The translations under genes were made by a program, and so were the position numbers. Shown in pieces: positions 12,291 to 59,615 of a stretch of 64,000 bases of DNA (its first letter is position 1; every line of letters starts with the position of its first letter). This DNA is from Anisus vortex (taxonomy: Eukaryota > Mollusca > Gastropoda > Planorbidae), in assembly GCA_949126835.1 (NCBI GenBank), contig OX421497.1, forward strand, positions 24,927,612-24,991,611. Reading direction: 5' to 3'. Under the pieces are notes generated by a model. It worked only from the letters and a program-made list of their open reading frames with translations. It was not told the DNA's origin and ran no database searches.

Positions 12291-12339
12291 TCTTCATTTG
12301 GATATTTTATTTGTATGTTTTCACTGGCTTTCAAATTTG

Positions 12340-13225: not shown

Positions 13226-13966
13226 TGTTCGTGCATTAAAAGTTTTTCTATGCAAATAAAACAATATTGTTAATATTCTATCGTGCTACTTGTAACGTAA
13301 AGGTCCAGTAAATGTATTAACGCATTAGGGTCCCCATGCACCGATTTCTTTGATAATAAACTCCACCACGTTATCTCAGCTAAAAGAATTATGCCCACTC
13401 TGTGAAGTCATCACCATGTGTGAGTCTATAAGATAAGTGAAGCTGTTCTCTAAATAAATCAATCGGTCCGTTTCTATAAAAAAAATTAAGTCGAATTTTT
13501 GTTTACCATCATTACCTTAAATCATTTCGCTTGTCATTAAGTGGCTTAAGCATCGTGCTGACGTAACTTATACTAACTCATACACATGCATACCAGAGGT
13601 GGCAACTAGCAATACACTCAAAGCTACGTTACCACACTATTGCAAAAGATATGTAGGCTTATTTGTAAAAAAAACAACAACAATTTATAAATATAAACAC
13701 ATACATTTTTATAAGTCATAAGCAAGCTAATTAAAAATTTTTGTTTACTATTTTTATAATGTTATATATGACACAAAGTATTTAACTACACATTTTGTCA
13801 CATACACGACAAGAACACGAACTAAAACTTGCCAACTCCACAATATACATCAAATGCATTATCTAGTTTGTGAACAAGACAGATTGACCATCCATAAATG
13901 TGCAATAATAAACTCTGACTTTAACCAAATTTAACTTAAAACTATACGGTAATACATTCTTAAATT

Positions 13967-14157
13967 TTACTTTAGGAAAATAGCTAAAAGGCAAATCGAT
14001 GCCATCAACAAAGATGGCTGCCAAACGGTTGCATCGCTTTGTGAACATTGGTTTGTTATTTCTATGTCTTGTATGTGACGTATTCTGCCTTGAAGTCCTG
14101 TTATAAGTGGTGAGTGAGATTTTATGTAATCCACAAAAACATCCGTGTCAATTTTAC
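13967..14157 (-). CDS. 5'-nucleotidase exon 11 (GPI signal, stop)
   Basis: It encodes [34 protein letters not shown], a polar segment [12 protein letters not shown], then hydrophobic [17 protein letters not shown] and TAA. EGRI/QGRI is conserved near the end of the folded domain. The final hydrophobic stretch preceded by Ser/Asp/Ala fits a GPI-attachment signal. No clear AATAAA was seen on the minus strand close by. Confidence 0.92.
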
Positions 14158-17100
14158 CTGAAAAAATATGAAATAACTTTTATGATTGCAGCATTGAACA
14201 AAAGTCAAAATCATTCATTTAGTAAATATATAACTAGATAACTAGATCACTTACTCTGCAAAATTTAGTATTGGTTATCGTAGATAAAAAAAATTTGTTG
14301 GGCATATGTCTATAATAATTAAAGATATTTATTCTACTAATATCAATGTTATGAAGTGGTGCATATATTCCGGAGATCGTGATCCTTTTCTCCGCAATAT
14401 TTTGGATCTAGTTTTCTATATATTTTAAGTGTACGGACCAAATAACATCCATGAGAGGGTTTTTTTTTCATTACAAGACAAGCAATTTGTTTTGTGGCAC
14501 TTTGCGCACTGTCTCCTTCAGCGTATCCAAAAGATGGCGGATGGGGAGGCTCTTTATTGTAGTCTGATAAATATAGCACTTGATGCTGGTGCAGATGTCA
14601 TGTGCTAGCCAGACTACCCTTGAGTACAAATGCCGAACTTGGTTCGTGGCTCACGATTCACGGCTGGCGCAATTGGATTCACCTTAACAGACCCAGATCC
14701 CAATTAACAAGTTATTGATAGGCTATATATTTAAACGACCGTTTCCTCGGTCTCATCCTGTACATTCGTTTTGCTTCGAATTGGTCAACAAATAAAACCA
14801 AATAAACACGATAAACAAACATCTTCTGGAAGATAGGCACTTCTGTACCCATGAGACTCAAAGTCCGCTTAGTGTATAAACCATTGGTTCCCCGAGTCAG
14901 ACCAGTGAGCCAATGTATGGGACTGCGGTCGCCATAAGCCTCCACCCCAATAACTGAGGGCGTCGGGGAAAGAACTGCTCGTATGGTACGATTCAGGCTC
15001 GTACGGTTCAATCTGGCTCCAGTGGTAGTGCACACCACACCACCTGGCTCCTCCGGGGGTGAGGCTTGGTGCGACGCCAGTTATTGTCCTGATAACCGCT
15101 GGTTCAAAGATGGTCTTGAGGAATGTGTCCGCTTTAGGCGGGGGCATCCCTGAGTCAGACAAAATCACCTCTACCAACACCGTACCAGCCAACATTATAG
15201 GAATACGAGGCATCCCATGTATGACTCGAGGGGTGATGCAATTATACATTCGGAAAGGGGATTACAAATAGAGCAAGCAAGCCCAACATGGGACCGCCCT
15301 ATAGGCGTGCCTTCATAGGGCTAGCCTATAGGGCTAGATTGAACCTGAGACGACTTCCTCCCACCTTTCCTGCACAAGATGCATGGCCTGCTGCCGCCAC
15401 TGCATTACTCTGCTCCAATCTCGGCCGAGTGGCGGTTAGCGTTTGACACTTGGACGATGTATCTCTGCACCGACCTTGAGTCCATTAAGGATTCAAAACG
15501 GCAGATAGGGATGAACCCTGACCTAAAATCAGGAATCCTGAAATCAGTTTGTTTGTGGCCAAAGCTTCGTAATGCGACGCCGATTGTGCACAACTACCTG
15601 TTTACTAGGTTTACCCTGTAGTTGGCTGTGCTGCTTTTGCAAAGCGTTGTCCAGGCAACTTATTTCCTGCTCCATCATCCTCTGAGTTCGGACAGAGCCC
15701 CTTTAATTATTGTATATACTGATAGTGTCATATTCCATTTCTGTATCCACGGACCTCATCGTTGGCGAAGTGTGGAAACCACCAGTTTCTCTTGAAACAA
15801 AAGCACCCAGGTGGGCTGATGCGCGCCAGAGGTATCATTGCACTGCCGAGAGGCCCTGAGCCTCGGAGGGGAGGAAGCAATTTAGGGGGGGGGGCAGGAG
15901 TACCGCCTAAACCCCTCCCTGTTAGCTGGATGTCCAGGCCTATAGGCTGCAATTTGTGCTACCGGGCCACAGTGCAGGTATAGGCCTACGAGGAAGACAC
16001 CATGATAATGATCCTAGGGAAATTCCGCAGATGGTGAGAAGTAGTGTAATGTATGTGACTGTGGAAACCACATATATATACATATAAGTATGTGTGAATA
16101 TCAATATAAGTAGTGTATACCTATAATTGTTTTCTTGATAATGCTATTTGGGAACATGTTATATCCATCACCACCTTGATATATAAATGAACTACACAGT
16201 AGATTGTATTCCTCGTTAGGTTTTACTAATTCCAACTTGGGCACACGGCATTTGGTACAGGTGACTTTAAGCTCAACTACACGAGAACCAACAGGCCTCT
16301 TGATGTCAAATGTTACCTGTATACCTGAAAAATAAACTACACATTACAGATGTGCACATCTACCCACCTATATATCCATCACCCACGCAACCATTCATCG
16401 ATAGATCCAGCAAGGAAAAACTTCTTAAAACAATTTTTAAAAAGAAAGAGGCGTAACAAGAAATACTATTTTGTATTGAAGGAGCGTATATAACATATAA
16501 ATATCCACCCACCAATCGACACATTAGCTCACTCATCCATTCATCCATTAAGCTTCTCAACAATCCATCCTTACATCAATCTATACAGCCATCCCAAATC
16601 ATCTTTCCATGTATAAATATAATCTAGTAGCTCATTTTTAATATAATCTATAATCTAATGTACAATCATATCTGCAATCGAATCTACAAGCTAATCTACA
16701 CTATAATATACAAGCTAATCTAATATACAATCTAATCTACAATCTAATCTGCAAGCTAATCTACAATCTAATCTACAAGCTAATCTACAAGCTAATTTAC
16801 AATCTAATGTGTTATCTAATTTATAATCTAATCTATACTCTTATATATACGCTAATCTACACTGTAATCTTTACTCTAATATATACTCTAATATATACTC
16901 TAATCAATACATTAATCTAAAATCTAATATATGATCTAATCTATAATATATTTTATAACCTATTCTATAATGAATTCTATAACATTTTCTATAATCTATT
17001 CTTAAATCTGTTATATAATCTTTGGAAGACTTTGTTTTCGATTCAATTACTCTGATAATAAACAAAATAATATGTATTAATCAAGATTAAGAAAAAATAA

Positions 17101-20100
17101 TTTTAAAAATATATTTTTAAAAAACTCAATAAATCACTTACCAGAAACTTGTAAAAAGCCACCAAACAGCTCACCCACATCAGTTGTCCACTTTCCAGCC
17201 ATTCGTTCAAACATGTCTAAAATAGTCTGACCTTTAATTGTGATTATATCCATTGTGTTTCTAAATGGCTGGGTAAATATAGCATTTTCAAGTGTTATTG
17301 GACCTGTAAATATAGCATTTTCAAGTGTTATTGGACCTGTAAATATAGCATTTTCAAGTGATATTGGACCTGTAAATATAGCATTTTCAAGTGTTATTGA
17401 ACCTGTAAATATAGCATTTTCAAGTGTTATTGGACCTGTAAATATAGCATTTTCAAGTGTTATTGGACCTGTAAATATAGCATTTTCAAGTGTTATTGGA
17501 CCTGTAAATATAGCATTTTCAAGTGTTATTGGACCTGTAAATATAGCATTTTCAAGTGTTATTGGACCTGTAAATATAGCATTTTCAAGTGTTATTGGAC
17601 CTGTAAATAAAGCATTTTCAAGTGTTATTGGACCTGTAAATATAGCATTTTCAAGTGTTATTGGACCTGTAAATATAGCATTTTCAAGTGTTATTGGACC
17701 TGTAAATATAGCATTGTCAAGTGTTATTGGACCTGTAAATATAGCATTTTCAAGTGTTATTGGACCTGTAAAACGCAATAACAATGACATTAATTATACC
17801 GTAAATTGGAAGAAATATTTTATGAAAGCTTGGAAATTACTTACAAGAGTTCACCTAAAGACCTAAATGGATTAAGCAATTTGACAAATCTATCTCACCT
17901 ACATAAATAGAGATGACGCTATATCTAATCTGGTTTACATGTTTCGATGGTACTATTTCCATAGACTATAATATACATGGACCGCTTGCTTCAGTATTTC
18001 TGCTATATGATGACTTGAAACACTGATGTTCGGAATTCCCGATTCTAAATAACGTAATTGCTATACAGGAAATAAAGTAATTGAAATACAACTTACGTTT
18101 TATTTAATCGCTACGATTTTCTCAATGAAAAATTAAAATCGAAAGTTGTACAGAGCGGAAACATTTATAGATCAGTGTTGTGTACGCACCGAAAAGAACA
18201 TAAGCTCTAAAAATAGAGCAGGCGGTCATCTTATTATAGTCACTGATAATAGGATTAATAGGCCTACAAGTATTCATTTAAAGTCGAAAAAAATGCGATT
18301 TAATAAAACGGAACTTGTATAAGAATTACTTCATTTAGAATCGGGAATTGCAAAAAAAAAAAAAAGAAGATAATAGCATAAAAAACTAAAGCAAGCGGTC
18401 CATGTATATTATCATAGACTATTGACAAGTCTTAACGTGTATGCATGCATAAAAGTTCACAAGAAAAAACATTTCCGATCGAATTCGATCACATTATAAA
18501 AAAACATGTCTGCCATGTGTGCTATGTTACTGGTTGTAGGCTACGAAAATATGTAGAGAATTAAATTTTATTTCATTTCCAAAAAGATGGCGCCAGAAGA
18601 AAACGATGGATTGTGAATGTCAGATTTGAAGAATCACCTACTTATAATCCCAAACTAATTGCTTGATGCAAAAGAATTTTTGTGTTGTTGTTTTTTATAA
18701 ATTTCCGCATTGTGTTTTTTTTAATTACCAAGGACGCAACTCTTGACTAGCTTATTTGATAAACTAAACCTAAATTTAACCAAACGCGACTAACACTATG
18801 AGTATTAATTATCGCCTACTCACTTTTGATGTTAAAAACGGATTCCTCATAAATAATCTTGTAGCCGTTGTATATTCTAAAAGACAAGAACTGGCTGTCG
18901 ATGTTGAAATCAATTGTCAAACAGCACCAAAAGCATGGTTTCTATTTACGAAAATGGCGGTAAATTTCACCGGAAGTTCACGCTCATCCCAGTTCAAAAG
19001 GTCACACCTAATTAAGACTTGTCAATAATATACACGGACCGCTTGCTTTATTATTTCTGCTATATGATGACTCGAAAGACTGCTTTTCGGAATTTCCGAT
19101 TCGTTGTTTCCTTTGCACTTCCCTTTTATTGAATCCCTTCGATTTTCTCAAGGAAAAATTATAATTAATATTGAAATTTTTATACAGCGGAAACATTTAA
19201 GAAGCAACGAGGCGCGTAGAAGTAATTTCAGACAGCGTTATTGGTTGCGCACGCAAAAAAAGTACATATAAGCTCTAGAAAATAGAGCAAGCGGTCCATC
19301 TTATTATAGTCTATGATATTATAGTTTATCGTATTATTATTACTTTATCTTAAGTTAATTTTTATGTTATATAACAAGCGTATGAATGGATATAAATAAC
19401 TTTTGTATTAACAAATATATGGAACAGTATATAAAGCATGCTCTCCGTGTGATGACATGAAGTTTTACCTGTTGGAATGGACGCTCGAAACCCTCCAGCA
19501 TTAATCACTGCCATGCTGACGTCATTCCACATATTGTCTCTGGGTACGAAAATATTGGCGCTCAGTACAGCATCAGCGAGGACGTTCCCTAAACAATAGA
19601 ACAATTATTCTAGGTGAATGGCCATAATTAAATAATAGAAAAATCACACTAGGTGAATGGCCATAACTAAACAATAGAACAATCACACTAGGTAAATGGC
19701 AATAACTAAACAATAGAAACATAACACTAGGTGAATGGCCATGAATAAACAATAGAACAATCACACTAGGTGAATGGCCATAAATAAACAATAGAACAAT
19801 CACACTAGGTAAATGGCAATAACTAAACAATAGAAACATAACACTAGGTGAATGGCCATGAATAAACAATAGAACAATCACACTAGGTGAATGGCCATAA
19901 ATAAACAATAGAATCATCACAATAGATGAATGGCCATAATTAAACAATAGAACAATCACAATAGGTTAATGGTAATAACTAAACAGTAGAACAATCATAC
20001 TAGATGAATGGCCATAACTAAACAATAGAACAATCATAATAGTTTAATGTCCATAACTAAACAATAGAACAATCACATTAGATGAATGGTCATTACTAAA

Positions 20101-23100
20101 CAATAGAACATTTTACTAGGGGTATGGCCATAACTAAACAATAGAACAATCACCTTAAGTGAATGTCCATTACCAAGCACTTCCCATTTCAAAGTATAGG
20201 CTTAGATATGAAATAGGCGAAGTGTCAATCAAATATTACGTATGAAATATTATATAATGTCCCACAATGCTTGAGCATAAATTGTTGGGACCTTTGCTTG
20301 CTTTTGTTTAAAAAGTCACAGATAATTACCAGTTTGTAGGCCTATATAGACACACTATATATTATGTAATATCCCAGCTTTCTATTGTATTGTGTACTCT
20401 AGTGTGTAGTCTTACAACTACTTTCAGTTAAAACATTTGAAACTCTGTGTTCACCATTTTAACGTTGCTACATTTAGCTTGCCTATTTTACTATTGCCAT
20501 TTTTACCGTTACCATTTTTTACAGTGATGCCAAACGTCTCATGAATGAGCTAACTTATTCAAATTATAGTCCAAAGTTCTACATCAAACTCTATATGAAG
20601 CTATAAACTTAGTCAAATTATATTTCATAGTTCTACATTTAACTCTATATAAAGTTACAAACTTATCCAAGCTACATATTGTTGTTCTACATTTAACTCT
20701 ATATAAACTTACAAACTTATCCAAGCTACATATTGTTGTTCTACATTTAACTCTATATAAAGTTACAAACTTGCCCAAACTACATATTGTTGTTCTACAT
20801 TTAACTCTTTATAAAGTTACAAACTTATCCAAGCTACATTTTGTTGTTCTACATTTAACTCTTTATAAAGTTACAAACTTATCCAAGCTACATATTGTTG
20901 TTCTACATTTAACTCTTTATAAAGTTACAAACTTATCCAAGCTACATATTGTTGTTCTACATTTAACTCTTTATAAAGTTACAAACTTATCCAAGCTACA
21001 TATTGTTGTTCTACATTTAACTCTTTATAAAGTTACAAACTTATCCAAGCTACATATTGTTGTTCTACATTTAACTCTATATAAAGTTACAAACTTACCC
21101 AAACTACATATTGTTGTTCTACATCTTACTTTATATAAAGTTACAAACTTATCCAAGCTACATATTGTTGTTCTACATCTAACACTATATGAAGTTACAA
21201 ACTTACCCAAGGTACATATCATTGTTCTACATCTAACTATCTATAAAGTTACAAACTTACCCAAGTTACATTCTTTTGTTCTACATTGAACTCTATCAGC
21301 CATAAGGTCAACGTTGGTAAATCCAATGGTCGTATTCTTGAGTTGTTCTATTTCTGGCAAGTAGGTATTTATAATACTTAGTGTTACTGGATCTGAAATA
21401 CACGACATGTAGGTCTTTGCGATGAATTGAATTAGGCGAAAACACATATTAGATTAAATAATTTACTAGCATATGACATTAATTATGAACTAATTTTTAA
21501 TGCGCATTAATCATCACTGTTTACTCACGCGCTCTATGTTTTTCCCCCATCTATAAATATAGACTAGAAGGTTCTCACCACAGAATAAATATAGAACAGA
21601 ATGCGCAATCGTATTTAGTCTGTTTCTGGAAGTAATACCGACGCCATAATGTTTAGACTCAGCAGACTTGGTTACACTATATATTTATGCTTATTTACAA
21701 TGTCTTTTTCATCAAATCTACAATTTCGAACACCCAAAGCTAATGCTTCAGGCAAAAGGTACAAAGGCTGATGTGTAATAAACTGCAACAATGATTCGAA
21801 AACGATTGATTATCGTACAAATAAGCATTTCAAACCACATGGCTTTCCTGACCCCGTAAAGGATAAATCACGGTAAGTTGTAACCCCATATTATTTAATA
21901 TTCATAGCCTTTCTTTAATCCTATGCTTGCTAAGACTAGATATCAGTAATAAAAAAGCCTTTCTTATTTTACTATAATATTAGCGTCTCTAGTGACCGCT
22001 GCCTTGAGTCAAAAGTAAATAGCGGAAGCCGAGCTTCATTTTTAATGACTGCGCAATAGGGATTGCGCATTCTGTTTTATACATATTCTGTTGTTCTCAC
22101 CTTCAACCAGCTAATTATCAACCGTAGAAGTAAATATTATGGTTTGTTCATTGATAAAGGGGTTCAACCCATTATGCACTAAGGGTTCAACCCGTTATGC
22201 ACTAGGGCTTGCTGTAAAAAAGCACCAAGAAGTACATAATATTGTGAAGTAAAATAATTTACACACTAAGCGTGTAAACAGATTTATTGAAAATTCCACT
22301 CGGGCGGATGTTATATAGTCAGTCACTAGGTGACGGTCTAGGAGTTGTCTAGTGACGCGAGGTTAACAATTGAATGGTAGAAGTTAATCTAGCCATGGAC
22401 ATTTTGAAAGAGGAGGTCCATCGGCACCGACTAAGAGCTAACATGAAAGAAGAAATTCTTTGCATCGTCACGGAGTTTCAGAGTCCAATTTAGCACTCAA
22501 CTGTAATACAAGCTAGCTAACTAGATAATTCACTAACTAACAATGTAAAACAATTTAGCACTCAACTGTAATACAAGCTAGCTAACTAGATAATTCACTA
22601 ATTAACAATGTAAAACAATTTAGCACTCAACTGTAATACAAGCTAGCTAACTAGATAATTCACTAACTAACAATGTAAAACAATTTAGCACTCAACTGTA
22701 ATACAAGCTAGCTAACTAGATAATTCACTAACTAACAATGTAAAACAATTTAGCACTCAACTGTAATACAAGCTTAGCTAACTAGATAATTCACTAATTA
22801 ACAATGTAAAACAATTTAGCACTCAACTGTAATACAAGCTAGCTAACTAGATAATTCACTAATTAACAATGTAAAACAATTTAGCACTCAACTGTAATAC
22901 AAGCTAGCTAACTAGATAATTCACTAATTAACAATGTAAAACAATTTAGCACTCAACTGTAATACAAGCTAGCTAACTAGATAATTCACTAATTAACAAT
23001 GTAAAACAATTTAGCACTCAACTGTAATACAAGCTAGCTAACTAGATAATTCACTAATTAACAATGTAAAACAATTTAGCACTCAACTGTAATACAAGCT

Positions 23101-26100
23101 AGCTAACTAGATAATTCACTAACTAACAATGTAAAACAATTTAGCACTCAACTGTAATACAAGCTTAGCTAACTAGATAATTCACTAACTAACAATGTAA
23201 AACAATTTAGCACTCAACTGTAATACAAGCTTAGCTAACTAGATAATTCACTAACTAACAATGTAAAACAATTTAGCACTCAACTGTAATACAAGCTTAG
23301 CTAACTAGATAATTCACTAACTAACAATGTAAAACAATTTAGCACTCAACTGTAATACAAGCTTAGCTAACTAGATAATTCACTAACTAACAATGTAAAA
23401 CAATTTAGCACTCAACTGTAATACAAGCTTAGCTAACTAGATAATTCACGAACTAACAATGTAAAACAATTTAGCACTCAACTGTAATACAAGCTAGCTA
23501 ACTAGATAATTCACGAACTAACAATGTAAAACAATTTAGCACTCAACTGTAATACAAGCTAGCTAACTAGATAATTCACGAACTAACAATGTAAAACAAT
23601 TTAGCACTCAACTGTAATACAAGCTTAGCTAACTAGATAATTCACGAACTAACAATGTAAAACAATTTAGCACTCAACTGTAATACAAGCTAGCTAACTA
23701 GATAATTCACGAACTAACAATGTAAAACGTTTTACTAGCGAAACATCAAGATAAATTAGATAGTTCGGGCTAAATCAGGTCTTAGCAGATATTATTAAAG
23801 CTTAACTCGGCAAAAAAATTATTTTGACCAATGGCGAAGTCCACATGTATAACTTCGAACCTTGCACAATGGAGTTATCAAGCAGTACTGGATTGCCGCT
23901 CCATGACGTCACCTTGCCTTGATCGTCAAACACAACATGCAGCTCGCCCAGGTATTTGCCGTAGGCGTAGTCTTGAATCACTAGCACGCGCTGGCTCTTG
24001 TCATGGGACTCCACCACCGTGGGGTAGACACCCTCGGCGGTTTCCGTGGATGGGACGGTGCCTGGAAACAAAATTGAAAATGTGTGATACATGTAGGAGC
24101 TCCAGCGCTCCCTTTCACGAAATTTCGGAAGAGATTGGCACAAGTGGTTGGCTTTCCAAATTTATTAGAACCGGTTTTATAATCTTATATTTCTTTACTT
24201 TAGTGATAATCCAACAAATTATTTTTTCTGATGTGTAATATTGTAAATAGAGTTTAATGTTTGAGTTATTTGAGTTATTTCCCTTTGTAAAGTGTCTTAT
24301 TCGTATACTTTAAAAATGTCCTTTATGTTTTTTCAACATTATACAAATTTGAACTTGCAGAAGAAATGTAAAACATTTACTTCATTGTTGAAATAAATGA
24401 GTTTCCACATGAAATGACTAATTATGAATGTCCCTAATCATTGTAAATAAATGTATTGGTGTGACCTCATACTACTATGCCCACTAACCGTTGTAAAGAA
24501 ATGTATTGGTGTGACCTCATACTACTATGTCCACTAACCGTTGTAAAGAAATGTATTGGTGTGACCTCATACTACTATGTCCACTAACCGTTGTAAAAAA
24601 ATGTATTGGTGTGACCTCATACTACTATGTCCACTAATCGTTGTAAACAAATGAATTGGTGTGACCTCATTCTACTATGTCCACTAACCGTTGTAAAGAA
24701 ATGTATTGGTGTGACCGCCCACTACTATGTCCACGTTTTTTAAACGTCTAGCGATTTCCAGATCTGCTGCGAAGCCAGAGTGACCAAGGGCAATGATTTT
24801 ATTGACACCCTGAGATGTCAGATTGTCCACTTCCGCTTGAATGGCCTGGAGTTCATCAATAAATTTCACAGTCTCTGTGAATAAAACATATTTAACTTAT
24901 ACTCCATTTACGGTATGTAGATAAAAAAAAACAGCTTTACATTTAGTTTCAACCATGTGGGTTAAACATACTTTACATTTACTTTTAATCCTGCAGGTTA
25001 AACATACTTTACATTTAGTTTCAACCCAGCAGACAGTGGCGTATTTAGGCCTATTCCACATGTTCCATTGGAACAGGGGCCCCAAGGGCCGGTCTTAGGC
25101 CACTGCAACCTATGCGGCCGGAAATGTTATATCTTATGAACTTTTATGCATGCATACACGTTAAGACTTGTCAATTTAGTGGATGAACTTTCATGCATGC
25201 ATAAACGTTAAGACTTGTCAATTTAGTGGATTTTCTCTAAAAATACAACGTTATTATCTTATTTTACAATTGACCAGTCTTAAATCTTATGCATGCTTAA
25301 GGTTCAGATGCAACTTCACTTCCGATCCTTATCGCTAAATTTAATTTAACTGCCTTCTGCTATAATTTCTGGCATACTCACTTTTAATATTTAAGACATT
25401 ATCCTCACAATAATACTTATAGCCTTTGTTTATTTGTATTCGACCTGAACTTGCAGTTGAAAGTGCAATGAATTTATCAGCATCCGTGAATGTTAAGGCA
25501 TCAACAAGGCATAAATCTCTGCTTGCAATCGTAATGGTTGCCATTGTAAGCAATACAAAATGAAACCGGAAGTTTTAACAGAAATTATGTAAACTTTAGA
25601 TAAGGTTACGACAGTATCATAAAAATTAAAGACATGACTTGTCTAGTATGGTTTGTAACGGGAGGGGGGGGGGCGCCGTACTGAGCGAATAACACAAGTG
25701 ATATCACGTGATTTGTCTATATGATTTTCTTAAACCAGCTTAACTTTGGTTCTTCATCCACAATACCCGGACATCAGTTCAATATCAAATAAACATAATA
25801 TGCAGCCAGGCCTTGTAGCATTTTTTTAGTATTACAAAGCTCTCATTGAAGAAAGCTTAATATTTTATCGTCTTTAAGGTTCACGACATGTTTTTGTTTA
25901 TTAGTAGATGCCAAATGTAAAAGAAATAGCTAAATGGAGCATTGTACACTTTACGATTAAAGTTACGAAAATGTGATTGATATTTCGTTTAGAACATGCT
26001 ACCACTAGAATGTCTCAGAAATCATTAACAAACATTAATAAACATTTTAAAAAAACATTAATAGACATTAACAAACAGTAAGAAACATTGATACACATTA

Positions 26101-26317
26101 AAAAAAACATTAACAGTCATTAACAAACAGCAAGAAACATTAATAAACATTATAAAAAAACATTAATAGACATTAACAAACAGTAAGAAACAATGATACA
26201 AATTATAACACTTTAGCGGATGCACACTCACAATAGGTAACAAAAACAAATCATCACCAAAAACAAATATTTGAAAATAAAATCGTTAAAAGATTTGTGA
26301 GCCTTATTAATTAGCCC

Positions 26318-26382
<65 letters not shown>

Positions 26383-26412
26383 ATATATATATAAATATAT
26401 ACATAAATATAT

Positions 26413-26478
<66 letters not shown>

Positions 26479-29400
26479 TATATTGTTATTCTCTCACCAG
26501 GCTTAGAGATGAATTCAGTGTCTGTTGTTGTATAACCAACAACTCCAACTCTCTGGCCTCCAACTGTCAGGACTGTTGACGGTACGATCAGGCCTAACAG
26601 CAATTTGGTCGTGTTTAAATTCATATTACTAGACAAGAGTGGAAAGGTAACGTTGGCTGCAAAAGGAGCTAGACCTTCAACTCCTTTGTCAAACTCATGG
26701 TTGCCTATTGCCTTGGAATAGAATGCAAGGGGAAAATGATAGTACAATAAGCTGATTTTAGTAGATAACGTAGACTACATTGACAACCACAAATTATTCA
26801 ACAGCTAGCGGATTTTCCATATCAACCCACCAATTCTGCGCCATTGACAAGTCTTAATTAGGCGTGACCTTTTGAACTGGTGTGATCGTGAACTTCCGGT
26901 TCTATTTTTAAATGTTTAATTATTTTAGGCATTTCCGTAAGCAAAAAAAGCATGCTTTTGCTGGTTATTGACAGTTGATTTCAACCTCGACAGCTAGTTC
27001 TAGTCCTTTAGAATTATACAAAAGATACAATATTAGTTTATGAGGAATCCGTTTTTAACATTAAAAGTGAGTAGGCGATAATTAATACTCAAGTATTAGT
27101 CGCATGTAGCTAGTTTATAAAATAACTTAGTCAAGAGTTGCGTTTTCTTGGTTATTGCTAAATTATTGCAAAACAAAATTCGTAAATTGATAAAAACGAA
27201 AAACAAAAATTATTTTGCATTAAGCAATAAGTTTTATATTATAAAAAGGTAATTATTCCCTTCTGAGTTTCACAATACATTGTTTTCTTTTGTAAACCTG
27301 TTTTGGAAATGAAAGAAATTTTAATCCCCAACAAATGTTCGTACAACCAGTAACCCAGCACACAGACATGTTTCGAATAAAATGATCGAATTCGACCGGA
27401 AATGTTATTTCTTATGAACTTTTATGCATGCATACACGTTAAGACTTGTCAATTTAGTGGATTTTCTCTAAAAATACAACGTTATTATCTTATTTTACAA
27501 TTGACCAGTCTTAAATCTTATGCATGCTTAAGTTTCAGATGCAACTTCACTTCGGATCCTTATCGCTAAATTTAATTTAACTGCCTTCTGCTATAATTTC
27601 TGGCATACTCACTTTTAATATTTAAGACATTATCCTCACAATAATACTTATAGCCTTTGTTTATTTGTATTCGACCTGAACTTGCAGTTGAAAGTGCAAT
27701 GAATTTATCAGCATCCGTGAATGTTAAGGCATCAACAAGGCGTAAATCTCTGCTTGCAATCGTAATGGTAGCCATTGTTAGCAATACAAAATGAAACCGG
27801 AAGTTCCACAATGCACTTGAAACATGTAAAAAGTGATCATAACACGTCTAGAGTAAATTACTAGAAACATGCCGAAAAGATAATTATACGATTGTTTACG
27901 GAAATATAGCGAAATGAATTTGCATCCAATAGAGCGTTCCCAATGGGCGTGGCTTAGGTTTTTTTAGTGACGTATTTGTGTAAATAGAAGCCACTATTGG
28001 TGTACAAAAATGGTGAAGTACTTCTTTATCATGCAAAATTGATATCTGAATATTGGCTATCCTACTCAAAAATAAGGAGGTAAATAGTAGTACTGTAGAT
28101 TAATTGATTAATGTGATTAGGCTAGGGCCGGCTAGACCTATTTACACTTTCAATTTCACTTTATAGGCCTACACTTTTAATGTTTCGTAGGCTAGGCTAA
28201 TGCAAGTAGGGATGCCAAGTGGTAGTGTTGGTGAATAGGCTATCTAGTCAAGTCACTAATATGCTTACATCGTCTATGATCTATGTCTATGATAATAATA
28301 AAATAGCCTATTTTATTTAACAGACATAATACAGCTTAAACCTTAACAGGACTTTAAACACAAAACATCATTTTTAAAAAGCTCGAGCCTATATGAAACT
28401 TTATTAATACAGCGGCCATTGTTACTTGTACACCATTACTCAAAGTAAACAAAAATCACGTGCTTTTTGTCACGTGATTGCAAACGCCCTATTTACCTAT
28501 TTAACTGTGATACTAGTCCTTAGTAGGCCTTCCACGAAATAAACAAGATTTTAGGCTTTTATAGTTTTTCAATAGCTCTTTTGAAACATTGTACATTCTG
28601 CTTTATGCTTTACTTTTAGATAGTAAGTTAATAGGCTAACTTTCGACAATCGACATCTTCAATTAAATATTCGGCACTTACGGAACCTTTTCCATTGATT
28701 TTTAAAGGTTTAAATTTGAGCTTTGAATGTTATTTTACATCGCTTGACAGTGTTTTATATATGTTTTACCTTATATTGTTGAAATGATCACATTTAAAAA
28801 TAAAACCTTCTTAAGGCTATAGTAATACAGCTGCCATTTATCACCTCTAGACAAAGTAAAAAAAATCACATTAATTTTTATTAGTAATTATTATTCCTAC
28901 CAATTAGTTAGTACTTTTGTGACAACTAGTTCTCAAAAAACATTTGCTTTATTTTTTCTTAGTGTAGCCTACATGTCCGCGGGAGGGATTAAGTGTTATA
29001 TGGGACTATCTCGCGGGAAGGGAGGGATTAAGTGTCGCGGGACCAAATGTCAATGGGATTATCTGTCGTGGGGTTAAGTGTCAGGGAGTAACTGTCACGC
29101 GATCAAATGTCGCGGGATGAAATGTCCGTACACCCTTTTTGTCACGTGATTGCAATCGCTCTAATACTTCTATATCTAACGGATTTTCCCATTTCTCTAT
29201 ATCTAAAAAAAAATCTACCTTTAACCTCTTATTTTGTCACGAACCCACATGGAAACACTGAAATATGTAAGAAATATAACATAAAATAGAAATAAAGCAA
29301 AAGTCCTCTAAAAAGAACTTTTTGTAAAAATATCTCTCTACAATTATTTTTTAGCTTAATTTAATTATTGCCCCTGATTTATTCGTGTTTGGCATGTTTG

Positions 29401-32076
29401 TTTTGTGCATAAATACATCTATCATAACATTGCTATGTTTACACCATGTCTAATGCGTGCCATCTATCTGTGAGCTACCCCAAAAACAAAACAAATACGG
29501 CCATTGATTAACTTGTACAAGTACACACGCACACACATACGGTATAAATGTAAAATGTTTGTATTACCATAGCGTCATAGCGAATGAGGTTCATGAATCT
29601 AGCAGTCGCCAAACCTCCAAACTGATAAAACCAAATTGTGCCTTGGAACTGGTCACCAGCATCTAGCAGTATAGTATTTGGATACTTCTGTCTCTTTTCA
29701 TTCACCTGCAGTTAGAAATTACCCCTTTTATACCACATATAAATTTATATAGGTCAGTTTGATCGCCACGGTTCTAGTTAATTTGTTAATGTTTACGCTT
29801 AAATCTATTTATATATATTTATTCCTATTTATATGTCTTGAACATTAACGTTTCTTTTCTGTTTCAACTTTGGTCTAAAATGTAACGAATGTATGCAGTT
29901 CAGTTGCATTTTTTATTTTTATTAGAAAAAAAGTGGCCATAGCCTTATAATGGCAGCATTAACTGGGTGGGATGACAGTCACAATGGCCATGGTGAGAAA
30001 ATGTTTTGATCTTGGATTTATTGCGCACAGGGCACAGGTAACCTTTTTCAGTGTATAATTCATTTTTGTATTCACTTAAACAGATTTGCATTTAGAAAGA
30101 ACAATGCATTAGATTTTTAAGTAAAACCGTAGTTTATATGATACATTTTGTTGTGTTCCTTTGCAACCCCATTACGTAAATATAAAACTGCTGGAATTCA
30201 GTGGAATATTTCCTCCTCCCCGTGATCGCTTGACATAATAGGCGTATGACATAACATTCAAATGGGGAAATGTTAAAAAAAAATTATTTACAGTATAAAT
30301 TACAAGCTTGTCTGATGTTTGGCGCGAACATTGATAACATAGAATCTGGTGAAAACTACATAATAGAGCGACATAATCATCAACATCTACAACACTGCCT
30401 TACCATTGTACGTATTCTTGCAACGCCACCAAAACATTTTCCCGTAGCTGCCAACTCTGCCGTGCAAGGTGCACTGTTCCTGAAAACAATCAGATTTAAG
30501 TTGTAGGCCTATAAACACTGATCAGTGGCTGTACAAGCATTGACACTTAACTGAGTTTCACTCACTGATCTATAAAAAGATTGGATTAGGCTCGGAAACA
30601 ATATTCTTGACGCATAAAGCGTCCTCCATTGTTATATGCTACCACTTATCTATACATTTATATTTATTAAGGCTTTACATTTAAATTTATTTAAAGTGAC
30701 TTCCTTTCTGTTCTTATAGATTTGCAACAGTTATATGTGGTTTATTACTAAAAATAAAATACATGCGTTAGTGAATTGTGAATAAAGTGTATACCAGTAT
30801 AGCTTCGCTTGCATCAATAAGTACATACATATTTTTTGAGGAGGCTTGAGACATTCTCTTTATTGATAAGTGGTTTCACCAATCAAATGACAAGTGTAAA
30901 ACTATAGCAAGTGCAGCTGTGAAATAATTACACACTCTTGTTATAAATCACAAAATTTAATTTAATTACTGCCCCTGATTTATTCGTGTTTGGCATGTTT
31001 GTTTTGTGCATAAATACATCTATCATAACATCGCTCTGTTTTTCAGTGACGTCATTTGTAAATAGAAGGCACTTGAGGAACAAATATGGCGAATGTTCTT
31101 TATCATGCCAAATTCACATATTTATGAATATTGGCTATCCTACTCAAAAATAAGGAGGTAAATAGTAGTAGATCATCTTCTATGATCTATGTCTATGATA
31201 ATAGGCCTAATACAGCTTAAACCTTAATAAGACTTAAAACACAAACATCATTTTAAAAAAAGCTCGAGCCTATATGAAACTTTATTAATACTACACAAAG
31301 TAAACAAAAAACACGTGCTTTTTGTCACGTGATTGCAAACGCCTTATTCTATCCCAATGTTTAAAGAAGCAGCCAATCACGAACTATAGACTAAACACGT
31401 GCCTATAGATACTATAAAAAACTTACTTGTCAGCTTTTTCTATTCCAAATTTAAACAAAAAAGAACACCCAATCACGAAATATGAACACGTGCCTATAGC
31501 TACTATAAATAGCTAACTTGTCAGCTTATTCTATTCCAATATTTAAAAAAGCAGCCAATCACGAACTATAGACTAAACACGTGCCTGTAGATACTATAAA
31601 TAACTTTCTTGTCAGCTTGTTATATTCCAAATTTAAAAAAAACACACCCAATCACGAACTATGAACACCTGACTCGATACTAAAAATAACTTACTTGTCA
31701 GCTTGTTCTATCCCAATGTTTAAATAAGCAGCCTATCACGAACTATGAATACGTGACTAGAGTCTATAAATACTATAAATAACTTACTTGTCGGCTTGTT
31801 CTATCCCAATGTTTAAAGAAGCAGCCTATCACGAACTATGAATACGTGACTAGATTCTATAAATAACTTACTTGTCGGCTTGTTCTATCCCAATGTTTAA
31901 AGAAGCAGCCAATCACGAACTATAGACTAAACAAGTGACTAGATTCTATAAATAACTTACTTGTCGGCTTGTTCTATCCTGGCGTGTACATCGTTGGTGT
32001 GTAAGATGGTGAGCTGAAACTCCGACACAACTGACGTCACCGTCAATAACAACCAGAGTAGACAAATCACAGCCAT
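13967..32076 (-). CDS. Ecto-5'-nucleotidase, GPI-anchored (CD73/NT5E family), 11 coding exons
   Basis: Joined exons: 32076-31961, 30479-30404, 29705-29568, 26711-26498, 24874-24689, 24061-23861, 21392-21261, 19588-19469, 17303 (or up to 17765)-17142, 16324-16121, 14157-13967. All introns are GT-AG and phases match. The family hydrolyses extracellular AMP to adenosine. The minimal product is 579 aa (human CD73 574). A signal peptide covers about residues 1-18. Metal ligands are D29 and H31 (NDVH), D82 (DAGD), N114 (GNHE), H213 (GHS) and H236 (GGHT). R389 (GGFR), F408 and Y503 (GGDGY, where human has Phe) line the nucleotide site by homology. The C-terminal 20 residues are hydrophobic after a small-residue stretch, as in GPI signals. 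Minisatellite copies of its own splice junctions sit at five exon ends. Expression is not shown by sequence. Confidence 0.94.
15065..15890. other. Intronic segment present only in duplication A
   Basis: This lies in intron 10 of the 5'-nucleotidase gene. In copy B the flanks CTCCGGGGGTGAGGCTTGG and CCGCCTAAACCCCTCCC are almost adjacent. The segment has higher GC content and carries open but unrecognised frames on both strands, such as 15379-15621 ([13 protein letters not shown]) on the plus strand. It may be a mobile-element fragment inserted in A or sequence deleted from B. No family assigned. Confidence 0.6.
16121..16324 (-). CDS. 5'-nucleotidase exon 10 (GGDGY motif)
   Basis: It encodes [36 protein letters not shown] and [18 protein letters not shown], then [13 protein letters not shown]. 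The family pattern is KVLCTKCRVP and GGDGF. The substrate-stacking Phe of mammalian CD73 is Tyr here. Acceptor TTTTCAG, donor ATAG|GTATAC. It begins without an ATG, so it is visible only as a spliced segment. Confidence 0.9.
16620..17030. repeat. Degenerate 11-12 bp CTAATCTACAA repeat in intron 9
   Basis: Short irregular repeats of TCTAATCTACAA with AAGC and TATA variants fill most of intron 9, up to about 110 bp from the exon 9 donor. No coding potential. Confidence 0.85.
17142..17765 (-). CDS. 5'-nucleotidase exon 9 with 15 in-frame 11-aa cassettes
   Basis: The constant part encodes [19 protein letters not shown] through [11 protein letters not shown] and ends CTG|GTAAGT. Before it lie 15 copies of the 33-bp unit encoding [11 protein letters not shown], all open and in phase. 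Each unit starts just after its own TTTACAG. Any unit used as acceptor joins in frame to exon 8 (PT-G). Use of the innermost one (17303) gives the family's normal length and matches the expected G-x-I-T-x-E-N segment before the PF motif. The outermost one (17765) has the best pyrimidine-rich context. Which is used cannot be told from sequence. Confidence 0.88.
17271..17769. repeat. 33-bp array of exon 9 acceptor/cassette (15 units)
   Basis: On the minus strand the unit is GTCCAATAACACTTGAAA then ATGCTATATTTACAG. Fifteen units run without indels. I count four substitutions among them, changing T to S, P to S, I to L and E to D; none is silent. The array straddles the intron 8/exon 9 boundary and is both coding-like and acceptor-like. 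Confidence 0.95.
17955..18420. mobile_element. MITE with GGACCGCTTGC terminal inverted repeats, copy 1
   Basis: The ends ATACATGGACCGCTTGCTT and AAAGCAAGCGGTCCATGTAT are inverted repeats, with outer ATAGACTATAAT and ATTATCATAGACTAT also inverted. Subterminal TATTTCTGCTATATGATGAC and GAATTCCCGATTC are shared with the element ends at 19026, 36420 and 50450. No coding capacity. Confidence 0.8.
18422..19025 (+). mobile_element. THAP-bearing MITE, copy 2
   Basis: Ends TTGACAAGTCTTAA and TTAAGACTTGTCAA are perfect inverted repeats. Internal sequence keeps the THAP-like pieces (CYVTGC, then [19 protein letters not shown]) in broken frames. It abuts MITEs of another family on both sides. Confidence 0.8.
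19026..19312. mobile_element. MITE with GGACCGCTTGC terminal inverted repeats, copy 2
   Basis: Left end ATACACGGACCGCTTGCTTT and right end GAGCAAGCGGTCCATCTT are inverted repeats. The interior has GATTTTCTCAAGGAAAAATTA and GCGCACGCAAAAAAAG. The right subterminal region (GCTCTAGAAAATAGAGC) matches the left end of the 7.2-kb element at 43527. Confidence 0.8.
19469..19588 (-). CDS. 5'-nucleotidase exon 8 (GGFR motif)
   Basis: It encodes [37 protein letters not shown] and IPT. The Arg of GGFR corresponds to a nucleotide-binding arginine in the family (GGIR). Acceptor TTGTTTAG, donor CAG|GTAAAA. The acceptor sequence is repeated upstream as a 39-bp minisatellite. Confidence 0.92.
19590..20178. 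repeat. 39-bp array of the exon 8 acceptor region (about 15 units)
   Basis: On the minus strand each unit contains ATTGTTCTATTGTTTAG, the same pyrimidine tract and AG that precede exon 8, followed by TTATGGCCATTCACCTAG. Only the innermost copy abuts exon 8. In the exon 8 reading phase the upstream units contain stops, so upstream acceptors would not give an open product. Confidence 0.92.
20585..21265. repeat. 54-bp array of the exon 7 donor region (about 12 units)
   Basis: On the minus strand the unit GAGTTAAATGTAGAACAACA then ATATGTAGCTTGGATAAG and TTTGTAACTTTATA resembles the last 35 bp of exon 7 plus its donor. In most units the donor GT is changed to AT (GGATAAGT), but the units near 21207 and 21089 keep GGGTAAGT. 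Open frames across the array on both strands are by-products of a unit length divisible by three. Confidence 0.92.
21261..21392 (-). CDS. 5'-nucleotidase exon 7
   Basis: It encodes [18 protein letters not shown] through [11 protein letters not shown]. The CRxxECN(L/M)GN pattern across the exon 7/8 junction is characteristic of the start of the substrate-binding domain. Acceptor TATTTCAG, donor TTGG|GTAAGT. Its 3' end is repeated as a 54-bp minisatellite at 20585-21265. Confidence 0.92.
21590..22095. mobile_element. MITE with ACAGAATA..GAACAGAATGCGCAATC ends
   Basis: Left end ACAGAATAAATATAGAACAG and right end GATTGCGCATTCTGTTTTAT are inverted repeats of about 30 bp. The 8-bp TTCTCACC flanks both sides, fitting hAT-type target duplication. 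Related copies lie inside units 1 and 3 of the 7.2-kb element (44287-45030 and 49069-49815). Confidence 0.75.
22486..23727. repeat. 65/66-bp minisatellite in intron 6 (about 19 units)
   Basis: The unit begins CAATTTAGCACTCAACTGTA and includes GCTAGCTAACTAGATAATTC and AACAATGTAAAA. Variants form runs: AGCTAGC or AGCTTAGC, and CACTAACTAAC, CACTAATTAAC or CACGAACTAAC, the last only at the right end. It is about 135 bp from exon 6 but is not a copy of that exon. Confidence 0.95.
23861..24061 (-). CDS. 5'-nucleotidase exon 6
   Basis: It encodes [18 protein letters not shown] through [20 protein letters not shown] and [11 protein letters not shown], matching the linker between the catalytic and C-terminal domains (family pattern QAYAFGKYLG). 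Acceptor TTTCCAG, donor CAAG|GTTCGA. Confidence 0.92.
24430..24738. repeat. 50-bp array of the exon 5 donor region (about 6 units)
   Basis: On the minus strand each unit repeats GGACATAGTAGT, then GGTCACACCAATACATTT, CTTTACAACG and GTTAGT, which are the last bases of exon 5 plus its donor. Repeat units have ATGA where the exon has GGGC. The unit length is not a multiple of three, and reading through the first donor meets TAG at once. Confidence 0.93.
24689..24874 (-). CDS. 5'-nucleotidase exon 5 (GHS and GGHT motifs)
   Basis: It encodes [19 protein letters not shown] through IIALGHSGF and [13 protein letters not shown]. The two histidines are metal ligands. Acceptor TTCACAG, donor ACG|GTTAGT. 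The exon's last 48 bp and donor are repeated downstream as a 50-bp minisatellite. Confidence 0.92.
25030..25565 (-). mobile_element. [15 protein letters not shown] element, copy 2 in intron 4
   Basis: Almost identical to 27400-27850. The minus-strand frame at 25341-25544 encodes [34 protein letters not shown] and [15 protein letters not shown]. The left side has two partial copies of a MITE end (CGTTAAGACTTGTCAATTTA) and, at 25030-25085, a GGAACAGGGGCCCC element end. Peptide function unknown. Confidence 0.6.
25566..26319. other. Intron 4 sequence with degenerate ACATTAA repeats
   Basis: No gene seen. A G-rich patch sits near 25663-25673. At 26010-26205 a loose repeat of ACATTAATAGACATTAAC with AAACAGTAAGAAAC is tandemly reiterated about three times. 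Confidence 0.6.
26320..26477. repeat. (TATC)n and (TA)n microsatellite beside the exon 4 donor
   Basis: About 14 TATC units at 26321-26378 are followed by a nearly pure TA tract to 26476. The tract ends roughly 20 bp from the 5' splice site of exon 4 at 26497. Confidence 0.97.
26498..26711 (-). CDS. 5'-nucleotidase exon 4 (GNHE motif)
   Basis: It encodes [18 protein letters not shown] through [17 protein letters not shown] and ends one base into the next codon. Asn and His of GNHE are catalytic-site residues. Acceptor TTCCAAG, donor CTG|GTGAGA. The donor is followed within about 25 bp by a long (TA)n tract and then (TATC)n. Confidence 0.92.
26844..27452 (-). mobile_element. THAP-bearing MITE, copy 3 (inverted)
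   Basis: Ends TTGACAAGTCTTAA at 26844 and TTAAGACTTGTCAA at 27439-27452. The interior is the reverse complement of 2902-3502, with the THAP-like start (CCAGTAACCCAGCACACAGA on the plus strand). It lies in intron 3. Confidence 0.8.
27453..27925 (-). mobile_element. [15 protein letters not shown] element, copy 3 in intron 3
   Basis: The minus-strand frame 27572-27775 encodes [18 protein letters not shown] through [18 protein letters not shown]. It differs from the 25341 copy at very few positions. Upstream sequence GGAACTTCCGGTTTCATTTTG is shared with 2860-2885. The product is not recognised. Confidence 0.6.
27926..29480. other. Intron 3 with a repeated segment and no gene
   Basis: 27960-28500 resembles 31040-31350 (GAATATTGGCTATCCTACTC, AATAAGGAGGTAAATAGTAG, CACGTGCTTTTTGTCACGTG). 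29340-29440 resembles 30955-31035 (GCCCCTGATTTATTCGTGTT). 28975-29130 has loose TGTCGCGGGA repeats. These look like scattered copies of non-coding elements. Confidence 0.6.
29568..29705 (-). CDS. 5'-nucleotidase exon 3 (DAGD motif)
   Basis: It encodes 46 whole codons from VNEKRQKYP to IRYDAM, with [13 protein letters not shown]. The second Asp of DAGD bridges the two metals in this family. The acceptor is CTGCAG and the donor ATG|GTAATA. A decayed copy lies at 6112-6180. Confidence 0.92.
30404..30479 (-). CDS. 5'-nucleotidase exon 2 (short, GGVAR motif)
   Basis: This 76-bp exon is bounded by TTTTCAG acceptor and ATG|GTAAGG donor. With the phase left by exon 1 it encodes K then [20 protein letters not shown] and RIRTM. 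The CFGGVAR motif and the paired cysteines match this position in ecto-5'-nucleotidases. Joining exon 1 directly to exon 3 would create an immediate stop (AAG TGA), so this exon is required. It was found by searching for the missing GG-V-A-R segment. Confidence 0.88.
31346..31975. repeat. 85-95 bp array of the exon 1 donor region (about 7 units)
   Basis: On the minus strand each unit contains GATAGAACAAGC(C/T)GACAA then GTAAGTTATT, identical or nearly so to the last 20 bp of exon 1 and its donor. It is followed by TATAG and about 60 bp of intron with CACGTG/TACGTG and TGATTGG-like sequence. Copies lie near 31427, 31512, 31600, 31689, 31779 and 31866; the true donor is at 31960. Most keep the GTAAGT. 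Confidence 0.92.
31961..32076 (-). CDS. 5'-nucleotidase exon 1 (signal peptide, NDVH motif)
   Basis: It encodes the start methionine, a hydrophobic signal peptide ([14 protein letters not shown]) and [19 protein letters not shown]. The Asp and His of NDVH are metal ligands of the metallophosphoesterase domain. The upstream in-frame Met at 32154 was not chosen because the intervening 26 residues are polar and would bury the signal peptide. An AG preceded by a T/G-rich run at about 32127 could be the acceptor of a 5' UTR exon. The exon ends AA|GTAAGT (phase 2). Confidence 0.9.
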
Positions 32077-32939: not shown

Positions 32940-34455
32940 ACTTTTCATATATGGATAAAGTGATTCCAACGCTCATTTTATAAATGAATAAAGTGATCCC
33001 AACGCTCATTTTATAAATGAATAAATGGATCCCAACGCTCATTTTATAAATGAATAAAGTTATTCCAACGCTCATTTTAGAAAAATGAATAAAGTTATTC
33101 TAACGCTCATTTTATAAATGAATAAAGGGATCCAAACGCTCATTTTATAAATAAATAAAGTGATCCCAACGCTCATTTTATAAATGAATAAAGTTATTCC
33201 AACGCTCATTTTAAAAATGAATAAAGGGATCTTAACGCTCATTTTATAAATGAATAAAGGGATCCCAACGCTCATTTTATAAATGAATAAAGGGATCCCA
33301 TCGAACCTTTCATAAATAGATAAGTGATCCCACCACATTATTCTTACATAGATAAAGTGATCCCAACGCTAATTTATAAATGGATAAAGTGATCCCAACG
33401 CATATTTCATAAATAGATAAGTGATCCCACCACATTATTCTTCATAGATAAAGTGATCCCAACGCACATTTCATAAATGAATAATGTGATCCCACCACAT
33501 TATTCTTACATGGATAAAGTAATCCCAACGCTCATTTTATAAATGGATAAAGCGATCCCAACGCACATTTCATGTATGGATAATGTGATCCCAACGCTAA
33601 TTTATAAATGGATAAAGCGATCCCAACGCTCATTTCATAAATGAATAAAGTGATCCCAACGCTAATTTATAAATGGATAAAGCGATCCCAACGCTCATTT
33701 CATAAATGAATAAAGTGATCCCAACGCTAATTTATAAATGGATAAAGTTATCCCAACGCACATTTCATAAATAGATAAGTGATCCCACCACATTATTCTT
33801 ACATAGATAAAGTGATCCCAACGCACATTTCATAAATGAATAAAGTGATCCCACCACATTATTCTTACATGGATAAAGTAATCCCAACGCTCATTTTATA
33901 AATGGATAAAGCGATCCCAACGCTCATTTCATATATGGATAATGTGATCCCAACGCTAATTTATAAATGGATAAAGCGATCCCAACGCTCATTTCATAAA
34001 TGAATAAAGTGATCCCAACGCTAATTTATAAATGGATAAAGCGATCCCAACGCTCATTTCATAAATGAATAAAGTGATCCCAACGCTAATTTATTAATGG
34101 ATAAAGTGATCTCAACGCACATTTCATAAATGGATAAAGTGATCCCATCACATTATTCTTACATAGATAAAGTGATCTCAACGCACATTTCATAAATGGA
34201 TTAGTGATCCCATCACATTATTCTTACATAGATAAAGTGATCTCAACGCACATTTCATAAATGAATAAAGTGATCCCAACGCTAATTTATAAATGGATAA
34301 AGTGATCTCAACGCACATTTCATAAATGAATAAAGTGATCCCATCACATTATTCTTACATAGATAAAGTGATCTCAACGCACATTTCATAACTGGATTAG
34401 TGATCCCATCACATTATTATTACATAGATAAAGTGATCTCAACGCACATTTCATA
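32940..34455. repeat. 33-bp minisatellite upstream of the gene (about 46 units)
   Basis: Unit TAAATGAATAAAGTGATCCC plus AACGCTCATTTTA, with a second family CCACCACATTATTCTTACAT interspersed. Two or three unit types alternate, giving higher-order blocks such as 33555-33720. It is homologous to the 10-unit array at 4607-4950 but about five times longer and more diverse. Confidence 0.93.
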
Positions 34456-34733
34456 AATGGATCTATACTAAATCTTCATAGTTAAGAACTATTTGAAGAA
34501 TGCAGAACTCGCCCTCCTTCCTATCTTAGAAAAGATTATGCAGACGCCTATGAGCTGAGGTGGTATATCGTTACATACAACGGGTTGGGGGACAAAGAGT
34601 AGTGAAATGTTAGAACAAATTGATTGACTATTTCTAGACAATCCAAACATAAGTTTCATACAACTGAACTTTTCTTCCCTTCACTTTTTGAAAACAAAAA
34701 TTCATTGCGTGGCATAATTAACTATTCATTTAA

Positions 34734-36143
34734 TACCCTGTAATTTATAAGCTCTTTAATAAAATATGGGACAAAGAACATGTACCTACCTCATGGAAAC
34801 GAGGGATTATTGTCAAAGTTCCCAAGAAAGGCGACCTAACCCTCTGTGAGAATTGGAGAGGCATAAACCTATTGTCTGTTACAGGAAAAATCTTTTGTAG
34901 AATCTTACTGATGAGAATGAGAACAGGAATAGAGAGAGTCCTACGTGAAGAACAAGCTGGTTTCAGAGCTGGAAGATCATGCAATGATCAAATTTTTGTC
35001 CTGCGTACCATAGTGGAACAGTCATTGGAATGGAACTCCTCTTTGTACATCAACTACATAGATTTTGAAAAGGCTTTCGATAGCATCCACCACCCAACAC
35101 TTTGGACAATTCTGGAATCATATGGATTCCCAGACAAAGTCATTAACATCCTGAAAGACATCTATACTGGAAACCAGTGCTGTGTACGCCATGAAAACCA
35201 ACAGAGTGAATGGTTCCAGGTGAAAACAGGTGTCCGACAAGGATGTGTGATATCACCTGTTATCTTCTTAATAGTAATGGACTGGGTCATGAGGAGAGCT
35301 ACTGCAGATAAACCTCGAGGCCTAGTATGGGGACTAACTTCCTATCTAGAAGACTGCGATTTTGCAGATGACATAGCTCTGCTCTCTCATTCTCAACCAG
35401 ATATCCAGGAGAAGACAACAAGAGTAGAACAAATAGCCAAAAGTGTTGGCTTAAAGATCAACTCAGGGAAAACAAAAATCATGAAAGTTAAGACAAAGAG
35501 CTCTAAGAGGACAAGTGCCAATGGTGTGGAGGTGGAAGAGATTGAAAACTTCAAATACCTTGGCAGCTACATCTCTGCTAATGGAAGCATAGACATGGAA
35601 ATCTCCACCAGACTAGCTATGGCAGCTCAGGCCTTCAACAAACTGGGGAAAATATGGAAGTCATCCTCTCTGCAACTAAGAACAAAACTGAAACTATACA
35701 AGTCAAATGTACGCTCAGTCCTTCTCTATGCTGCAGAGACCTGGAAGACCAATACCAAAATTGAAGGCCGCCTTAGAGGGTTTGAAGGTAGATGTCTCCG
35801 ACGTATTCTAAGGATCAGCTGGGAGGACCACATCTCCAACATCGAAGTCCACCAAAGAACTGGAATAAGCTTCATTATCGATGAAATAATGAAAAGAAGA
35901 TGGAGATGGCTGGGTCACATCCTCCGCATGGACAAAATGAGGCTCCCAAGCAGCGCATTGAAATGGACACCACCAGGAAAAAGACGAAGGGGAAGGCCAA
36001 TGGGAACGTGGAGGAGGACAATGGACGAGGAAGCAAAGGCCACAAATAAAACATGGCACGAAATCCGATGGCTCGCCCAGGATAGGGAGGCCTGGCGGAA
36101 CTTTGTTGCTGCCTTATGCTCCACGGGGAGCGATAAAGACTAA
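34734..36143 (+). mobile_element. 5'-truncated LINE, reverse transcriptase domain largely intact
   Basis: An open frame of about 470 codons begins after a stop at 34731-34733 with LFNKIWDKEHVPTSW and WRGINLLSVTGKIF. It continues with the fingers/palm (EEQAGFRAGRSCNDQIFVLR), the FEKAFDSIHH motif A Asp, RQGCVISP, the catalytic FADD box (CDFADDIALL), LGLKIN-like and YLGSYIS. It ends with a C-terminal WRWLGHILRMD, GKRRRGRPMGTWRR and a RLAQDRxxWR tail. The endonuclease domain is absent. The lack of stops over 1.4 kb suggests recent insertion. Clade not assigned; sequences of this type are common in aquatic invertebrates. Confidence 0.92.
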
Positions 36144-59354: not shown

Positions 59355-59615
59355 CATGTTGACTAGATGTTAACTAGATGTTAACTATATGTCAACTAAA
59401 TGTGAAAACTAGATGTCAAAACTAGATGTCAAATCCAGATGTAAAAACTAGGTGTCAACTAGATGTCAACTAGGTGTCAAAACTAGGTGTCAAAGCTAAA
59501 TGTTAACTAGATGTCAAAACTAGGTGTCAAAGCTAGATGCTAACTAGATGTCAACTAGAAGTCGAAATTAGTGTCAAAGCTAGATGTCAACTAGATATTA
59601 ACTAGATGTTTGAAT
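59355..59615. repeat. CTAGATGT short-period minisatellite, copy B
   Basis: Counterpart of 11845-12290, about 260 versus 445 bp. Confidence 0.9.

Follow-up and report, generated by a model that had tools for sequence, protein, structure and literature searches.

Minisatellite-like tandem duplications of exon–intron boundaries have been described in amphioxus under the name of mirages (PMC3087553, PMC3902484). According to the accessible text of the first paper, they affect the 5' or the 3' boundary, vary in unit length, and keep the splice signals in many of the repeats though not in every one; the genes concerned are Adh3 and the globins BflGb6 and BflGb9 (PMC3087553). Further cases are TnC and PGBD5, the latter with imperfect repeats (PMC3902484, accessible text). 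Regular splicing and length instability are both reported for amphioxus mirages in the accessible parts of this literature. In humans, internal tandem repeats with units of about 30 bp have been found in segmentally duplicated genes, some of them at exon–intron boundaries (PMC2812944, as far as its accessible text goes). The formation of introns from internal gene duplications or tandem arrays, with AG/GT signals involved, has been treated by Gao and Lynch (2009) and Zhuo et al. (2007), both known here through their citation in PMC3087553. A literature search with few subscription papers in its coverage, judged at listing level, found no gastropod mirages, and the accessible text of two gastropod gene-structure papers (PMC7931591, PMC3862624) does not describe them.

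The arrays presented here belong to this described kind. The preliminary description, which knew of no system like it, was mistaken on that point. They lie in a window of 64,000 nucleotides from the snail Anisus vortex, within a gene whose product is most likely a CD73-type enzyme, judged by its predicted protein. The gene model comprises 11 exons on the minus strand and encodes 579 amino acids in an uninterrupted frame, and all ten introns have GT and AG at their ends. Residues 9–543 of the 579 match solved 5'-nucleotidase chains (best PDB match, E 4.8e-145), so that the similarity to known structures is full-length, and residues G234, G235 and H236 are invariant in an alignment of nine sequences. 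Among the protein matches listed, the closest are from the planorbids Biomphalaria glabrata (72% identity) and B. pfeifferi (74%), followed by Lymnaea and Physella. The parts of the gene needed below are these:

13967 to 32076, minus strand: ecto-5'-nucleotidase (CD73/NT5E-like) gene, coding part, based on the gene model, the PDB match and the protein relatives
31961 to 32076, minus strand: exon 1, coding part from the ATG (gene model)
24689 to 24874, minus strand: exon 5 (gene model)
21261 to 21392, minus strand: exon 7 (gene model)
19469 to 19588, minus strand: exon 8 (gene model)
17142 to 17303, minus strand: exon 9 (gene model)
16121 to 16324, minus strand: exon 10 of the main gene (gene model), with a single-copy exon end and donor

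Tandem Repeats Finder (TRF) returned 58 rows for the whole window, and those within the CD73-like gene were merged by hand into 16 arrays. Six of these qualify as long-unit arrays, defined by a unit of at least 30 bp and at least five copies:

31343 to 31979, minus strand: exon 1 donor array, 7 copies of 84–93 bp, 19 bp exonic
24428 to 24734, minus strand: exon 5 donor array, 6 copies of 50 bp, with 46 of the 50 bp exonic
22486 to 23728, minus strand: intron 6 array, 19 copies of 65 bp, 133 bp off the nearest junction
20552 to 21296, minus strand: exon 7 donor array, about 13 copies of 54 bp, 36 bp exonic
19589 to 20170, minus strand: exon 8 acceptor array, about 15 copies of 39 bp, purely intronic and stopping at the AG
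17273 to 17772, minus strand: exon 9 acceptor array, 15 copies of 33 bp, 31 bp exonic

Five of the six touch a junction, three of them at donors (exons 1, 5 and 7) and two at acceptors (exons 8 and 9), and the 65-bp array of intron 6 is the sole long-unit array of the gene away from junctions. This is an unusual density within one gene. TRF and the dissection of the units thereby bear out the preliminary description, which had placed arrays with units of about 88, 50, 54, 39 and 33 bp at these five junctions. Its statement that every array holds the exon end together with the splice site is accurate for exons 1, 5, 7 and 9, whose TRF spans include 19, 46, 36 and 31 exonic bases, but not for exon 8, where the span includes none. 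All five arrays are placed on the intron side, and four are bounded by the exon copy.

The correspondence with amphioxus mirages, as the accessible text on them goes, extends to several properties. In four of the five snail arrays the tandem unit spans the boundary, the exon 8 array merely abutting it; donors (exons 1, 5 and 7) and an acceptor (exon 9) are both affected; and AG or GT is present in many but not all copies, exon 9 being the case in which all 15 have AG. Unlike the amphioxus examples covered there, the snail arrays occur in a gastropod, at five junctions of one gene with an additional array in a paralogue; one of the five stays wholly within the intron, the exon 9 units are in frame, and the arrays are known here from one DNA sequence. 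The minisatellite units at exon–intron boundaries also resemble the human internal tandem repeats. Those, however, belong to recent primate duplicates in which novel introns can form, according to the accessible text of PMC2812944, whereas the snail introns bear no sign of newness.

The copies differ in how well they have kept the splice signal. The GT donor is retained in five of six intronic copies of the exon 1 array, three of five at exon 5 and two of 12 at exon 7. In the exon 8 array, counting the real acceptor, TTAG stands at 9 of 15 repeat ends. The exon 9 array contains TTTACAGG 15 times, again including the real acceptor, and all 15 acceptors have kept their AG. When exons 1, 5 and 7 are lengthened to a decoy donor (one decoy for each exon), an in-frame stop precedes the decoy.

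Protein relatives give an indication of which sites may be used. Indels were checked in 115 relatives, kept from the best 120 of 2,485 matches, and none of them has an array-sized insert at an array-bearing junction (106 cover the junction of exons 1 and 2). Within 6 amino acids of that junction, the largest indel is 5 amino acids, found in 3 of the 106 relatives that cover it. The corresponding maximum is 12 amino acids at exons 5/6 (any indel in 8 of 115) and 6 amino acids at exons 8/9 (any indel in 17 of 115), and at exons 7/8 none of the 115 has an indel, all within the same best 120 of 2,485 matches. The homologue alignments are thus consistent with normal splicing of the CD73-like mRNA. 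Since splice use is read here from homologues, many of which are gene predictions, the insert-free relatives support, but do not show, that the exon-proximal splice sites are used.

In our reading, the arrays are probably neutral minisatellites of the mirage type, removed by splicing. Founder units would have chanced to span junctions of a conserved CD73-like gene and, in one case, to abut one. Each array may go back to a small tandem duplication that arose between short direct repeats, and would then have grown by slippage or unequal exchange. A junction-spanning duplication could persist, since it leaves one junction intact; most exon-internal duplications would be purged by selection. The spliceosome would pick the site closest to the exon, a donor at exons 1, 5 and 7 and an acceptor at exon 8 and probably at exon 9. 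With the exon-proximal sites in use, the arrays would normally be removed with their introns.

The units of the exon 9 array start with GT and finish with AG, and with a period of 33 its frame stays open across the 15 copies, which read as 11-residue repeats without stops. Isoforms that are longer in steps of 11 residues are therefore possible, all acceptors being in frame, and the array may correspond to a minor isoform. The array was also considered as established coding sequence; this was rejected, since the frame is open yet the insert is absent in the 115 relatives (best 120 of 2,485 matches).

Selection might in principle retain the arrays, either for robustness of splicing or because exon 9 yields useful length variants of the protein. 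The 15 in-frame acceptors of exon 9 and its stop-free series of 15 repeats would suit such a role. Four of the 14 intronic copies are nevertheless one base off the consensus, and all four changes alter an amino acid, so protein constraint is not evident. At exon 7 the decoy donors are mostly gone (GT in only those two of 12 intronic copies), decoys read at exons 1, 5 and 7 bring stops, and the 115 relatives kept from the best 120 of 2,485 matches lack an array-sized insert. Retention by selection is therefore very unlikely.

The preliminary description had spoken of an independent expansion of several junctions, and this is supported. A BLAST comparison of the unit consensuses found no cross-similarity at the setting used, and the mean divergence between units ranges from 2.4% at exon 9 through 7.3% at exon 5, 10.5% at exon 7 and 13.7% at exon 1 to 15.0% at exon 8 (14 units). 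The unrelated unit sequences and the differing internal divergence indicate that the arrays arose separately, and by their sequence they are separate events that differ in age or in homogenisation. A single repeat family behind all arrays was considered and rejected, because the unit consensuses lack cross-similarity.

Traces that fit the proposed birth of the arrays can be seen by eye at two of them. TTTAC is present both at the acceptor of exon 9 and where the unit ends within that exon, and GGACAT marks each end of the array of exon 5. Such flanking direct repeats would fit array birth through slippage between short repeats, but an incomplete final copy would give the same appearance of microhomology, which leaves the founder step unproven.

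The resemblance of each exon 9 unit to a proto-intron, with its GT start and AG end, raises the question of whether the introns themselves derive from duplicated exon segments by tandem genomic duplication, and the amphioxus globin paper proposes in its accessible text that introns arise from mirages (PMC3087553). Such an origin should leave the donor and acceptor regions of one intron similar to each other. In 80-base windows, same-intron pairs scored 10–16 (n=10), whereas the other pairs had a mean of 14 and a maximum of 23 (n=90), so the two ends of an intron are no closer than other pairs, and none of the ten introns shows a donor–acceptor duplication against the 90 other pairs. Intron ends made of duplicated exon sequence were not found, in which the snail introns differ from the intron creation of Gao and Lynch and of Zhuo et al., as those studies are cited in PMC3087553. 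With the caveat that old gains would be decayed by now, intron gain of this type is scarcely credible as an explanation of the gene's introns.

How far the position of the arrays departs from chance depends on the model. In the preferred null, one founder unit for each array is placed at random in the gene, with wholly exonic placements excluded. For the six long-unit arrays, 0.39 would be expected at junctions against five observed (P 5.8e-6; four or more, 2.3e-4), and with all 16 arrays 0.72 would be expected (P 4.3e-4). When whole arrays are placed instead, the expectation is 0.63 (P 5.0e-5; four or more, 1.3e-3). An estimate from the background rate gives P 2.9e-9 for five arrays and 2.8e-7 for four, which is rough, being derived from three arrays of the window that lie away from junctions and were counted by hand. 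Because the gene was chosen for its striking look, every one of these P values is post hoc and none is clean.

A coverage test over the windows of the gene, in which a strong nearby copy means a match of 27 or more of 40 bases within a reach of only 1.2 kb and the identity of the array is ignored, gives a different picture. Of the 20 windows at junctions, 4 had a strong nearby copy, compared with 31% of the 1,065 in introns, 21% of the 53 mixed ones and 3.4% of the 87 in exons, so no per-base repeat enrichment at junctions relative to introns was found. The founder test is the better model, because events are what it counts, though its basis is six arrays in a gene selected post hoc. The earlier view that the arrangement is hard to ascribe to chance is thus upheld by founder placement and not by coverage, and the choice of the gene was post hoc.

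These figures are also a difficulty for the neutral reading, since random birth predicts about 0.4 of the six arrays at junctions and five are there, an excess that stays unexplained unless the post hoc choice of the gene accounts for it. It could instead reflect a junction-biased mutational process, in which splice-boundary DNA of this gene or lineage is duplicated more often than DNA elsewhere, for example through breaks or slippage tied to transcription and splicing. The five of six arrays at junctions under founder placement (P 5.8e-6), the rough background rate, the additional array in the paralogue, and the comparable arrays known from several amphioxus genes, as the accessible literature presents them, all speak for such a bias. 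Against it stand the post hoc gene, the coverage test, with 20% at junctions and 31% in introns, and the weaker P of 4.3e-4 once all 16 arrays are counted; moreover, the units have no common sequence and their GC skew varies among arrays. A bias of this kind is unlikely, though it has a real chance of being right. It is doubtful that the snail lineage duplicates DNA preferentially at junctions, repeatedly and at different times, and has in this way produced, at exon 9 at least, a series of 15 in-frame acceptors by which the conserved enzyme could be lengthened in 11-residue steps. The process targeting splice boundaries that the preliminary description put forward is possible but unproven. Its suggestion of R-loops is not clearly supported either: the six long arrays are AT-rich, with 26–38% GC, and on the coding strand five of them have a positive GC skew (0.07 to 0.46) and the exon 9 array a negative one (-0.21).

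Should arrays at junctions turn out to be frequent in snails and not just in amphioxus, mirages would no longer be a peculiarity of cephalochordates but a general trait of animal genomes rich in minisatellites. They would then also provide a natural setting in which to study how the spliceosome selects one of several identical sites lying close together. If the junction excess is true, it would point to a mutational hazard linked to splicing or transcription.

The 3' part of the locus is present a second time at about 56.9 to 62.2 kb, with about 92–95% identity and including a second last exon. This partial paralogue carries a further array:

62113 to 64000, minus strand: paralogue array built on the exon 10 end and its donor, two blocks about 1.2 kb apart with 14 copies in all, leaving the window

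The units of the larger block measure 41–47 bp, and its 11 units differ by 0.4%. Between 63972 and 62161 there are 14 copies of the string formed by the exon 10 end and the donor; the junction of the main gene has a single one. The preliminary description counted this as a sixth array at the exon 10 donor of the paralogue; the repeated sequence is there, whereas the junction itself cannot be seen, as exon 10 of the paralogue is beyond the window. The single-copy donor of the main gene may represent either the ancestral or a collapsed state. Single in one copy of the locus and repeated in its neighbour, the exon 10 donor offers a pair for studying the birth, or the collapse, of an array.

Arrays are difficult to assemble and this one leaves the window edge, which could suggest an assembly artefact. 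The copies bear distinct variants, though, the gene is open, and periods and divergence differ between arrays, which makes such an artefact highly improbable.

The duplication that carries the CD73-like 3' end pairs 9001–16130 with 56859–62166 in pieces of about 92–95% identity with gaps, and both copies bear a 28-bp and a 13-bp array. Within the gene, introns 4 and 3 contain a repeated element (25344–25574 and 27575–27847, minus strand), with a short ORF that is nearly identical in both copies. Transposon-like sequences flank the gene, with matches to RVT_1 (reverse transcriptase) and to a hAT dimerisation domain at 34734–36140, 54439–54954 and 8174–8506. The 33-bp arrays at 4613–4947 and 32943–34462 have units that share ATGGATAAAG and, one base away from it, GATCC; one of the pair precedes the ATG of exon 1 by about 0.9 kb. 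Arrays of 19–20 bp at 45738–46517 and 53147–53551 have CCGGTAAT common to their units, and 95-bp repeats at 44079 and 48861 look related to them by eye.
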